From: Thermoanaerobaculia bacterium
Lineage (GTDB): Bacteria; Acidobacteriota; Thermoanaerobaculia; Multivoradales; Multivoraceae
Assembly (NCBI GenBank): GCA_022822365.1
Contig: JAJEBV010000041.1
Location: 1-64,000 of the forward strand
Length of the DNA stretch: 64,000 nucleotides
Direction of reading: 5' to 3'
The notes under the pieces were generated by a model that saw only the letters and a program-made list of their open reading frames with translations, did no database searches and was not told the DNA's origin. The position numbers were made by a program, and so were the translations under genes. This document shows, in pieces, positions 1-11,465 of this stretch. Numbering within the stretch: position 1 is the stretch's first letter; every line of letters begins with the position of its first letter.

Positions 1-138
1 GGATGTGAGGTCTGCGCGCACTCCGCTCCGCTCGCTCCGGTTGGTCGTCGCTTGATGCAGGGCACCGGGCGTCGCTCGCTTCGAGTCCGCTGGGACCCTC
101 CCCACGGAGCCCCGGACCGGCTGGAGGGCGTCGCTGCC
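1..138. repeat. Left arm of inverted repeat flanking apbE
   Basis: The reverse complement of this stretch aligns with about 1236-1374. A 21-base block at 24-44 is perfectly inverted at 1331-1351. Other shared blocks are gacgccctccag (inverted), the ggtccca core and gcgagcgacg. The two arms bracket the apbE gene. The stretch looks non-coding and carries no transposase, so it reads as a repeated intergenic element rather than an insertion sequence end. The element may extend left of the window. Confidence 0.6.
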
Positions 139-140
139 GG

Positions 141-1178
141 CTAGTCGGCATTCCCGAATCGGTCGCGGAAGGCGGCGCTTGAGAGCTCCTCCAGAGAGTC
201 CCCGCTGTAGATCAGGAGCAGGGCAGTGATGTTGTTCTCGTCGGCCCAACGCAGGCCTGCGTCGGGTCCGAGAACCATGAGTGCGGTCGCATAGGCGTCG
301 GCCGCGGCGCAGCTCTGGTGGAACACGCTTGCCGAGGCAAGGGCGTGCTCGACGGGCCGGCCGGTGCGGGGATCGATCGTGTGGGAGTAGCGCACGCCGT
401 CGCGTTCCCAGTAGTTACGGTAGTCGCCGGACGTTGCGAGTGAGCCGTCGAAGAAGGGCAGGATCCTCTGTAGGCCGGACTGCGTCGGGTCTTCCGGTGC
501 GCTCGGCGGAGAATCGGTCGCGGGAACAGGCGGCCGTTCAATCGCGATGCGCCATGCATCGCCGGCTGGGCTATGTCCTGCGGTGCGCACCTCGCCTCCA
601 ACTTCGACGAGGTGATTGGCGAAACCTGCATGGTTGAGGGCTTCCGAAACCCGATCCGTTGCCCAGCCCTTGGCAATGGCGGACAGGTCAAGAGCCGACC
701 CATCTTCGAGCTTGAGCACTCGCCGCTCCTCGGACAGGAGTTCGATAGCGCCGATCGCGTTTCTCATTTCAGCCAGGCGATCATCAGCTACTGGAGTTGG
801 TTCCGCGTCGCGCCCAGGCGCACCGAAACCCCAGGCGTCGACCAGTGGCCCAACGGTCGGATCGAACGCCCCGCCACTGTCTTCCCGCACACGCCAGGCG
901 AGTTCCAGCACCGCCCAGGTTTCCTCCGAGAACACCAGGGACTCGCCGGCTCCAAGCCGGTTGAAACGAGAGATTTCCGAGTCCTCTCGATAGGTCGACA
1001 TCGCCCGGTCCACTGCATTCAGCCGTTCCTCAACGAGGCCCCGGATCGCCTCCCGATCGCCAGCCTCCGCCACAACGCGAACCCGGTAGTAGGTACCCAT
1101 CGTGGCTCCCTGGAGCAGAGCTTCTTCAGGTACCTGTGCGCAGCTCGGGACCAAGCCAACCAACGCCAGCACAGGCAT
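141..1178 (-). CDS. apbE: FAD:protein FMN transferase (ApbE)
   Basis: A 345-residue ApbE-family enzyme, which covalently attaches FMN to threonine in target proteins. Here the likely targets are NqrB and NqrC, encoded just upstream. Visible family motifs are ATMGTYY near residues 25-31, DLSAIAKGWATD at 164-175, SGDYRNYW at 250-257, HTIDPRTG at 266-273 and AAADAYATALMVLG at 291-304. The start at 1178 is preceded by ggaag at a short distance and gives an N-terminus (MPVLALVGLVPSC) that looks like a short lipoprotein signal with a lipobox-like VPSC. The open frame continues up to 1397, but that extension is repeat sequence and low in plausibility. The gene is the last of the nqr series, 265 bases after nqrF, and has repeat arms on both sides. 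Confidence 0.9.
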   Translation of the reverse strand: MPVLALVGLVPSCAQVPEEALLQGATMGTYYRVRVVAEAGDREAIRGLVEERLNAVDRAMSTYREDSEISRFNRLGAGESLVFSEETWAVLELAWRVREDSGGAFDPTVGPLVDAWGFGAPGRDAEPTPVADDRLAEMRNAIGAIELLSEERRVLKLEDGSALDLSAIAKGWATDRVSEALNHAGFANHLVEVGGEVRTAGHSPAGDAWRIAIERPPVPATDSPPSAPEDPTQSGLQRILPFFDGSLATSGDYRNYWERDGVRYSHTIDPRTGRPVEHALASASVFHQSCAAADAYATALMVLGPDAGLRWADENNITALLLIYSGDSLEELSSAAFRDRFGNAD

Positions 1179-1235
1179 CCACTTCCGCCCCCGGCAAGAC
1201 CACCGAACTAGCCCTTCACAGGAAGCAGCCGTTGG

Positions 1236-1374
1236 GTGGCCCGACGCCCTCCAGTCTGGTGGGGGTCCGGGGGAGGGGTCCCAGGTGGCTCGGAGCGAGC
1301 GACGGCCGACGCCCTTTCGGAAGCCGATTCCCAACCGGAGCGAGCGGAGCGCAGTGAGCACACCCCCTCCCATT
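1236..1374. repeat. Right arm of inverted repeat flanking apbE
   Basis: Imperfect inverted copy of 1-138, including the 21-base perfect match at 1331-1351. Part of it (1265-1287) is also perfectly inverted at 1395-1417, so the nqrF-apbE gap can form a long stem with a loop of about 107 bases. Such a structure could act on nqrF-apbE readthrough, but nothing in the sequence proves it. Confidence 0.6.
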
Positions 1375-1394
1375 CTCCAGTTGAGTGCGAACGG

Positions 1395-1434
1395 CACCTG
1401 GGACCCCTCCCCCGGACACCCGCCAGACGGGTGC
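1395..1434. repeat. Third partial copy of the intergenic repeat
   Basis: Bases 1395-1417 are the exact reverse complement of 1265-1287 (23 bases), and similarity continues through cccgccagac. It lies directly after the nqrF stop codon, where a transcript terminator or processing structure would be expected. Confidence 0.5.
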
Positions 1435-1443
1435 CACCGCGGC

Positions 1444-2661
1444 CTAGCCGAAGTCGTCGAAGGCGATGTTCTCAGGCTCGACTCCCAGGTCGTCGAGCAT
1501 CTTCATGCAGGCCTGGAGCATCAGGGGGGGGCCGCAGAGGTAGTACTCGCAGTCCTCCGGGGCGGGGTGGTCCTTCAGGTAGTTGTCGTAGAGGACCTGG
1601 TGGATGAAGCCGGTGTAGCCGTCCCAGTTGTCTTCCTCGAGCGGGTCGGAGAGGGCGAGGTGCCAGGTGAAGTTCGGGTTCTCCGCCGCGATCCTGTCGA
1701 AGTGGTCGGTGTAGAAGGCCTCGCGGTAGGAACGGGCGCCGTACCAGAAGGACACCTTGCGGTCCGTGTGGAGGCGGCGGAACTGGTCGAAGATGTGGGA
1801 GCGCATCGGCGCCATGCCGGCGCCGCCGCCGACGAATACCATCTCGGCGTCCGTGTCCTTGGCGAAGAACTCGCCGAAGGGGCCGGCGATCGTCACGTCG
1901 TCGCCTGGCTTCAGGTTGAAGATGTAGGAGGACATCTGGCCCGGCGGCAGGTCCATCTCGCGGGGCGGCGGCGTCGCCACGCGGACGTTCAGCATGATGA
2001 CGCCCTTCTCCTCCGGGTAGTTCGCCATCGAGTAGGCGCGCACGACCGTCTCGTCGACCTTGGAAACGAGGTTCCAGAGCTTGAAGCGGTCCCAGTCCTC
2101 GTGGTACTCGTCTTCGACCGTGAAGTCGCTGTAGTTCACGACGTGCGGCGGGCACTCGATCTGGATGTAGCCGCCGGCGCGGAAGGGGACCTCCTCGCCT
2201 TCGGGCAGTTCCAGCACGAGCTCCTTGATGAAGGTGGCGACGTTCTCGTTCGAGCGGACCTTGCACTGCCACTTCTTGACCCCGAAGACCTCGGCCGGGA
2301 TGCCGATCTTCATGTCTTCCTTGATCTTGACCTGGCAGCTCAGCCGGCAGCCGTCACGGGCCTCGCGGCGGCTGATGTGCGTCTTCTCGGTCGGCAGCAT
2401 GGCGCCGCCGCCCTCGAAGACGTCGACGGTGCAGACGCCGCAGGTGCCCTGGCCGCCGCAGGCCGAGGGAATGAAGATCTGGTGCTCGGCCAGGGTGCCG
2501 AGCAGGGTTCCGCCGGTGGACGCCGCGAGGGTCTTCTCGTCGTTGATCAGGATCGAGACCTCGCCGCCGGCGACGAGCCGGGCCTTGGCCTGCATCAGGA
2601 CCGTGACCAGGGCGAGGATGACGACGGTGAACATCGTCACCCCGAGGACGACGGTGATCAC
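1444..2661 (-). CDS. nqrF: Na+-translocating NADH:quinone oxidoreductase subunit F
   Basis: NqrF is the NADH-oxidising subunit of the sodium pump; it passes electrons from FAD to a [2Fe-2S] centre. The 405-residue product has the usual length. It shows one N-terminal membrane helix (residues 2-23), then a ferredoxin domain with the cluster ligands C68, C74, C77 and C109. A ferredoxin-reductase module follows, with [11 protein letters not shown] for flavin binding and [17 protein letters not shown] for nucleotide binding. It is the sixth gene of nqrABCDEF and overlaps nqrE by four bases (ATGA), so translation is probably coupled. Confidence 0.97.
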
Positions 2662-7573: not shown

Positions 7574-8548
7574 ATGGACCAACTGGCCGATCAGGCTTCG
7601 CGGGGCGTTCGGACGGGCGCCGGCGAGCCCGCTTCCCGCGACTACAGAGGCTGCGATCGGGTTGCCATGACGCTCGCCGATCTGGACGCGGACGAGGGCC
7701 GCCGGGTCGAGTGCTGGGACGGGGCGACGCGGACCGCGATGGTCCTGCGGGAGCCGAGCGTTCAGCACGACTCCTCCACGAGTCGACTCGTCCAGTTGAT
7801 CAGGTCGATCGCTCATGCGCGCGGCGCCGCGATCTCCTCGGCAGGCTCGGCCGACCTCGTAGCCAGGAATGCCGCCGGGGTCAGGGATCTGATTCTCCAA
7901 GCCGACGCGACGATCTACGTCCACCCCGGGCGGGACTGGCCCGCGGGCGCTTACATCGAGGTGGATCGCGATCCCTTGCCGGATGTCGTGCTGGAAGTCG
8001 ATCACACCACCGATGTCCGGCAGGGCCGGAGAGGCCGCCGGGGAAAGCTGGACGACTACGCCGCCTGGAGACTGCCGGAGGTCTGGGTCGAGGTGCCCGA
8101 CTCTTCCTGGCGCCCGGGACGGCGGCCCGGGCTGACGATCTTCCTGTGGGAGGGCGAACGATACGTGGAGGCGCCGAGCAGCGGCGCCTTCCCGGGCTGG
8201 ACCGCCGCGGAGATCCATCGCGCCCTGAACGAGCGGGAAGAATCCGCCGAGACGGTCTCCGTGCTTCGCCGGGTGGGCCGCGCGATGGGCGCCGCCGAGG
8301 GGACCGGGCCGGACGACGATCCGTTCCTGCGGGAGGAGCGCAGGGAGGCCGCCGCCGAAGTCGTCCGCGCGACGGTCACCGAGGCGTTTGATTCGCGCGG
8401 CGTCCCGGTGTCGAGCGCGCTGCGGCGGTGGCTCGCCGAGTTCGACGATGCGTCCGATCCGGCGGGCGTGATTCGACTCGCGTTCACCTGCCGCGATGCG
8501 GACGAGTTTCTGCGGCGCGTCGAGGATGGCGGAGAAGCTGACGCGTGA
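7574..8548 (+). CDS. Uma2 family (DUF820) nuclease-like protein
   Basis: A 324-residue protein whose first two thirds match the Uma2/DUF820 family, a PD-(D/E)XK restriction-endonuclease fold. Visible core elements are VECWDG, an acidic strand at DATIYVHPG, PDVVLEVDHTTDV and KLDDYAAWRLPEVWVEVPD, which give the Asp, Glu and Lys expected for the fold. The last ~110 residues are charged and may form a C-terminal helical extension. Uma2 proteins are widespread and their biological role is unproven. A second copy lies at 10716 and shares similarity even upstream of the internal Met at 7667, which supports the longer start. It converges with the minus-strand gene ending at 8594. Confidence 0.8.
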   Translation: MDQLADQASRGVRTGAGEPASRDYRGCDRVAMTLADLDADEGRRVECWDGATRTAMVLREPSVQHDSSTSRLVQLIRSIAHARGAAISSAGSADLVARNAAGVRDLILQADATIYVHPGRDWPAGAYIEVDRDPLPDVVLEVDHTTDVRQGRRGRRGKLDDYAAWRLPEVWVEVPDSSWRPGRRPGLTIFLWEGERYVEAPSSGAFPGWTAAEIHRALNEREESAETVSVLRRVGRAMGAAEGTGPDDDPFLREERREAAAEVVRATVTEAFDSRGVPVSSALRRWLAEFDDASDPAGVIRLAFTCRDADEFLRRVEDGGEADA

Positions 8549-10715: not shown

Positions 10716-11453
10716 GTGGTTGATCCCACCGCGATACCTGCTTCCGACTCGCCGCCGCTGCGAGCTCCGGCTGGTCCTCGCTCCTACTACGGCTGCCGGC
10801 AGGTTCCCATGTCGCCGGAGGAGTACGAGCACTTCGACGGAAGGGTGGAGTGCTGGGAGGCGAGCAGCCAGACGGCCAACGTGCTGCGGGAGCCGACGGG
10901 CTTCCAGCATGAGTACTCTTCTCGCCGGCTCGTCGTACTCGTCCATGCGATCGGCGTGATTCGAGGTGCCGCCATCGCCTCGGCCGGGACGGTGGACATC
11001 GTGCAACGCGACGCGGACGGACGGAGAGAACTCGTCCTGCGGGCGGACGAGGCGATCTACCTTCGCCCGGAGCGGGACCGCCCCGCCGGGCTGTACGTCG
11101 AGGTTGGCTGTGATCCCCTTCCGGATGTCGTTCTTGAGGTCGACTTCTCGACCGATGTCCGTCGGAGTCGTCAGGGCCGGACCAGCAAGCTCGATGACTA
11201 GGCGGCTTGGGCCCTGCCCGAGGTCTGGGTCGAAGTGCCGGACTCGGCGAGGCCCCGAGGGCGCCGCCGGTCAGGCCTGACCATCTACCTGCATCGAGGT
11301 TCAGGTTACGTGGAAGCGCCCAGCAGCCGTGCATTTCCCGGCTGGACCGCCGTGGAGATTCACCGCGCGCTCAACGAGATGACGGACTCGCCCGAGACGA
11401 CGGCTGCCTTGCGCCGCGTCGGTCGGTCGATGGGTGAAGCGGGCGGAACCTAG
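10716..11453 (+). pseudogene. Uma2 family gene interrupted by an in-frame TAG
   Basis: Paralogue of the gene at 7574. The frame starts with GTG at 10716 and is clearly homologous (VECWEA, DEAIYLRPERD, PDVVLEVDFSTDV, KLDD). It then meets TAG at 11199-11201, exactly where the intact copy has the Tyr of KLDDYAAW. The same frame continues to 11453 with AAWALPEVWVEVPD, FPGWTAVEIHRALNE and LRRVGRSMGEA, matching the intact copy throughout. A single TAC/TAT to TAG change therefore splits the gene. Alternatives are a sequencing error or amber readthrough. The first part would still encode 161 residues, but without the C-terminal core strand. Confidence 0.75.
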
Positions 11454-11465
11454 CCCGAACGATTG

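Follow-up and report, generated by a model that had tools for sequence, protein, structure and literature searches.

An old family of structured palindromic intergenic repeats in a genus of Thermoanaerobaculia, with two copies beside apbE

Integron attC sites carry the core RYYYAAC / GTTRRRY, vary in stem sequence with the structure kept, follow stop codons in one orientation and fold on one strand. According to the part of PMC3733652 that deals with them, REPs with GTAG or CGTC tags are palindromes found for the most part after coding sequences and in the gaps of tandem or convergent gene pairs. In the passages of PMC2229807 on such repeats, the effect of ERIC on mRNA depends on orientation, and bacterial MITEs have TA at both ends and are A+T-rich. 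The element family described here resembles REP, ERIC and MITE repeats but misses defining features of each. With ERIC, bcr1, YPAL and Correia-type repeats, as those passages present them (PMC2229807), it shares a length of about 100-200 nt, an intergenic position often near genes and a long 5'-3' paired stem. In contrast to them, the element is GC-rich, shows neither a duplication nor TA ends, forms a three-way junction instead of a plain stem-loop, has stems that are near-random between copies and is very strongly fixed in its orientation to gene ends. Its palindromic structure and location mainly downstream of genes are shared with REPs as characterized in that part of PMC3733652, where REPs measure 20-40 bp, end in a tag and, in the GTAG types, flank a RAYT gene, whereas our element is ~190 nt long and does not flank the RAYT-like gene of this genus at the 12 loci fetched. 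A literature search found no paper on this family.

The window analysed here comprises 64,000 nt, positions 1-64000 of contig C43 of genome G000 (the own genome), so that window base 1 is contig base 1. Genes were called with a simple codon-based caller trained on the window, which recovers the nqr genes, apbE, rplQ and fusA. The window begins with the following features:

1-133, minus strand: left element copy, truncated where the contig begins; covers positions 1-133 of the 191-position model, with a model match at 1-132 of 85.9 bits, cut off at the 3' end.
141-1172, minus strand: apbE, FAD:protein FMN transferase family; gene call, Pfam ApbE (PF02424), E=6.7e-82.
1243-1433, plus strand: right element copy, full length, ~190 nt; covariance model match 177.3 bits, E=3.7e-31.
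1251-1287, plus strand: closing stem P1, 5' arm; inverted repeat with 1395-1431 (92% complementary), covariation.
1295-1345 (approximate), plus strand: internal helix region P2; hand-mapped from alignment columns 58-109, covariation.
1354-1392 (approximate), plus strand: internal helix region P3; hand-mapped from alignment columns 118-159, covariation.
1395-1431, plus strand: closing stem P1, 3' arm; inverted repeat with 1251-1287.
1444-2661, minus strand: nqrF, stop codon facing the right element; Fer2, FAD_binding_6 and NAD_binding_1 domains.

Used as query in a whole-genome search, the left copy matched the right copy with E = 1.2e-17, so their likeness is not due to chance. Each block, used in the same way, also turned up numerous other copies in the genome. 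The inverted blocks that the first-pass annotation had seen in a left and a right arm are present: in an inverted-repeat comparison of the window, 13-44 was 91% complementary to 1331-1362, including a 21-base perfect block, and 59-113 was 80% complementary to 1261-1315. Its right arm, placed at 1236-1374, is a real repeat of which the extent was wrong, as the element occupies 1243-1433. The supposed third partial copy after nqrF turned out to be the closing arm (1395-1431) of the right element's own hairpin; the pairing of 1251-1287 with 1395-1431 over 37 nt (92% complementary) makes the right block and this 'copy' a single hairpin. Truncation of the left copy is explained entirely by the start of contig C43, with which the window begins. 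Copies also lie at or near several contig ends (C43:1, the C39 end, and the C25, C18 and C45 ends), and the repeat therefore probably breaks assemblies. Further into the window, two related stretches (7574-8548 and 10716-11458), 3145 nt apart, share 152 nt at 71% identity; the second may be a shortened duplicate of the gene that the first contains.

Between the 3' end of the right element and the stop codon of nqrF there are 10 nt. The start codon of apbE is uncertain, its open frame running on to 1397. nqrF occurs in 19 of 21 genus genomes and apbE lies directly downstream of it in all 19, with or without the element, so that the neighbourhood is independent of the element. A full-length element separates the two genes in 11 of these genomes. 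No element follows nqrF in G017, where the gene is 99% identical; element remnants follow it in G011 and G007, and a short left-arm remnant in G001 and G016. These partial left-arm remnants show what appears to be deletion rather than a clean empty site. The idea that the repeats frame apbE as a movable cassette, which was to be checked in relatives having apbE without the repeats, is rejected in view of this arrangement: apbE keeps its place even where no element follows nqrF.

We built an alignment (A1) and a covariance model from 18 own-genome copies, leaving out C18:73186-73379, the C25 copy and C50:137460. The first of these is a perfect fold-back reaching the contig end and probably an assembly artefact; the C25 copy (G000:C25:21018-21279) is enlarged in its distal half by an inserted double hairpin, about 70 nt long, that the G003 and G017 orthologs lack. 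The whole-genome repeat search proposed in the first-pass annotation, run with this model, revealed a dispersed family with 26 full-length copies in the own genome; weaker matches were mostly reverse-strand echoes of the palindromes. The annotation's 'mobile element or REP-like family' was apt in that these are dispersed, REP/MITE-like intergenic palindromes with many copies in genome and genus, but their size and copy structure are unlike those of REPs (20-40 bp).

All 20 other same-genus genomes searched contain the family, with 9 to 43 matches each among those listed; at E<=1e-9, 42 matches were found in G003 and 58 in G017, both of the same genus. Model searches of 60 relatives gave matches at E<=0.01 in 27, namely 21 of the genus (own included) and six others of the order, and no element match in the three other genera of the same family. 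Four of the six order-level relatives outside the genus yielded 12, 8, 3 and 1 matches. The closing stem was present and the inner motifs were similar in 22 copies read in other genera of the order, where, judged by these features, diverged relatives of the element occur. In an even phylum-wide sample, with the best eight candidates per genome scored, 12 of 297 genomes matched, all in the genus. An exact-pattern scan of named genomes led to Acidobacteriota MAGs (Thermoanaerobaculia, Ca. Multivorans thiocomprendens and 'Holophagales' bins), which we take to come from sponges. A search of 14 copy-bearing loci with Rfam 15 gave no element match, the only hits at E<=1 being two tRNAs and one 6S RNA.

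Covariation among the copies shows a predicted fold on one strand, a three-way junction with a closing stem of ~35 bp. Both sides have changed in 28 of the 43 pairs in A1; stem sequence thus varies among copies with complementarity kept. Of the cells, 94.4% were paired, compared with 81.4% for shuffled and 44-49% for slid controls. The covariation score was 0.395; shuffling lowered it to 0.150 (0/500) and sliding to 0.07-0.10. These controls remove relatedness incompletely, the slid ones keeping it. When 204 copies (effective number 115) were scanned for mutual information without a guiding structure, the top-ranking pairs were those of P1, P2 and P3, and nearly all of them were standard. The arms within one copy are about 94% complementary, and when copies of one genome are compared with each other, their outer arms show 63-66% identity (53% for shuffled arms). 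Copies have a GC content of 0.64-0.78, about 0.7, and the end consensus CGACGNC.TCCAG / CGGGTGC.

On the element strand, G.T mismatches outnumber A.C mismatches by 94 to 37 over all copies, a table that retains the conserved A.G mismatch at position 10 (125 copies), and by 72 to 32 (p=1e-4) when counted once per ortholog cluster with position 10 excluded. One-step changes within ortholog clusters go weakly in the same direction (54 G.T, 37 A.C). On contig C6 of G017 the strand of the element seemed at first to go with the replichores, but only 20 of 28 copies lie opposite the leading strand (hand count, GC skew); sampled genes have no such bias.

Placement relative to genes was counted per ortholog cluster (84 clusters), and undeduplicated counts agree. 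In 62 of 76 clusters the 3' neighbour is directed toward the element (p=2e-8), with a median distance to the stop codon of 21 nt; for the 5' neighbour this holds in 42 of 82. Between tandem genes the element is antisense in 30 cases and sense in 4 (p=6e-6), and convergent pairs outnumber divergent ones by 31 to 9 clusters. Since its 3' end faces the stop codon, the element lies antisense and just downstream of genes. The bias is weaker in other families of the order, where the 3'-side gene points at the element in 13 of 21 cases (hand count, with a caller untrained on those genomes).

For at least 22 of the 26 own copies, an element also occupies the orthologous position in G003 or G017, the copy sets of both being partial. 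Ortholog comparisons (stem changes, 5' flank, identities) used 29 hand-listed pairs, own-G003 and own-G017. For G003 and G017, respectively, identity was 96.8% and 91.6% in the arms, 93.3% and 86.1% in the core, 85.2% and 79.0% at fourfold sites and 92.5% and 89.7% in alignable intergenic DNA; the 5' flank was 55% identical. The arms evolve more slowly than fourfold sites, in the more distant pair hardly more slowly than alignable intergenic DNA, and the core no more slowly, so that these rates do not prove a present function. Outer-stem changes between orthologs comprised 33 double changes with pairing kept and 2 with pairing broken, and 25 and 30 single changes, respectively. Arms created afresh at insertion are an unneeded assumption, as old divergence with pairing kept explains the paralog and ortholog identities.

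We sought a clean empty site at two places and obtained none, so the insertion itself is something we infer. The C5:134999 site has partial deletions in G003, G004 and G012, probable remnants in G013 and G020, no element in other relatives, and another, separate element in the same gap in G015 and G019; no junction could therefore be defined. At the second site, the copy is common to several relatives. These comparisons show copies that for the most part descend vertically, each keeping its position in different species, and losses that look like deletions. No target-site duplication was detected in 80 cluster representatives (best Z 3.7 of 11,272 tests), although old copies could have lost one.

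One locus varies in content, and we compared it among genomes:

G000:C11:14075-17778: rplQ-fusA hotspot; the same gap was compared in G003, G006, G018, G007, G012 and G019.

Inverted element pairs flank BsuBI/PstI restriction-modification cargo in the rplQ-fusA-like gap of G000 and G006 (Pfam) and, by likeness of called genes only, the same cargo in G018. In G003 a pair flanks an operon with two ATPase domains and a metallo-beta-lactamase. Both elements are present with 283 nt between them in G017 and 339 nt in G002; G008 has one element, G010, G014 and G015 have none and a short gap, and G019 has cargo without elements. The gap is an insertion hotspot, which by itself is no demonstration that the elements move cargo.

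A Y1_Tnp gene, the only transposase family searched, is present in 12 of the 21 genus genomes, and the element was absent from all 12 Y1_Tnp loci fetched. As read from the sequence, the Y1_Tnp gene of L199 stands between two oppositely oriented copies of another hairpin, which is small and GC-rich. This second family has the core GCCGGCCAGAAGGCCGGCGCACC and variable stems (L199, around 1000-2000), and a pair of such hairpins round a single-copy IS200-like (Y1_Tnp) gene is a typical REP/RAYT arrangement. The small hairpin often lies 5' of the large element and was seen upstream of several copies.

Several origins can be weighed against these data. The element could be a MITE of the usual sort, derived by shortening from a DDE transposon, ending in terminal inverted repeats and moved by a transposase encoded elsewhere in the genome; it is indeed a small non-coding element of about 190 nt with paired ends and many copies. 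However, its ends lack TA, its GC content is high rather than low, no target-site duplication was seen in the 80 representatives, its ends are near-random between paralogs and its internal helices covary strongly, which makes this origin improbable. A large palindrome moved by the genus's single-copy IS200-like transposase, in the manner of REP/RAYT systems, would agree with the occurrence of Y1_Tnp, and both placement downstream of genes and lack of a duplication fit single-strand transposition. But the element flanks the candidate gene at none of the 12 loci, that of L199 having the other hairpin instead, and is no palindrome of 20-40 bp with a GTAG or CGTC tag, being far larger; we give this reading little credence. 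Integron-like (attC-like) recombination sites marking gene cassettes would explain a kept structure with variable palindromic stem, one folded strand and one fixed orientation just after stop codons, as well as the element pairs round different cargo at rplQ-fusA in different genomes. Yet the end consensus has no RYYYAAC / GTTRRRY core, copies are inherited vertically beside conserved core genes (rplQ, nqrF) and not in arrays, apbE is invariant and the G019 cargo occurs without elements, so we regard this as very improbable.

The strand-specific fold with three covarying helices, the G.T excess and the fixed antisense position could also reflect transcription of the element strand into a structured RNA that is antisense to the end of the gene, such as a new small RNA or an antisense terminator. 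This seems unlikely: the poorly conserved 5' flank leaves no conserved promoter apparent, and Rfam gave no match. A broader proposal is tentative and still rather doubtful, namely that these are genus-wide structured elements acting via the strand antisense to the neighbouring gene, as three-way-junction RNA or folded single-strand DNA with a locus-specific closing stem, fixed in orientation ~20 nt after stop codons and kept as gene-end insulators or antisense regulators after single-strand transposition. The account that we favour as probable is that the two copies at the window start belong to an old family of structured intergenic palindromes, ~190 nt long and dispersed in the genome, that spread in the past and persists at gene ends. 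That the family was once mobile and is now mostly vertical is likely. Spread would have occurred as a non-autonomous element moved in trans, recognized most plausibly as a folded single strand, because no target-site duplication was found and the fold is strand-specific. The element would now persist as a gene-end hairpin that might help to shape mRNA 3' ends or to stop antisense transcription. That it has a function there today is conceivable, though we lean against it, and a simple mRNA-hairpin role fits badly, since the strand found in the neighbouring gene's mRNA is not the element strand.

Our findings describe a real, old, structured intergenic repeat family with a life style close to that of REP, ERIC and MITE repeats, for which we infer a mechanism of spread and a present role. 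They add a large, covariation-supported repeat family for acidobacterial symbionts of what are, presumably, sponges, and the element may explain assembly breaks, as the window itself starts inside a copy. With dozens of independent stems per genome and orthologs across 21 genomes, the family provides a natural test set for the question whether selection on bacterial palindromic repeats acts on an RNA, on folded single-strand DNA or on a signal at gene ends, and what accounts for their orientation relative to genes.
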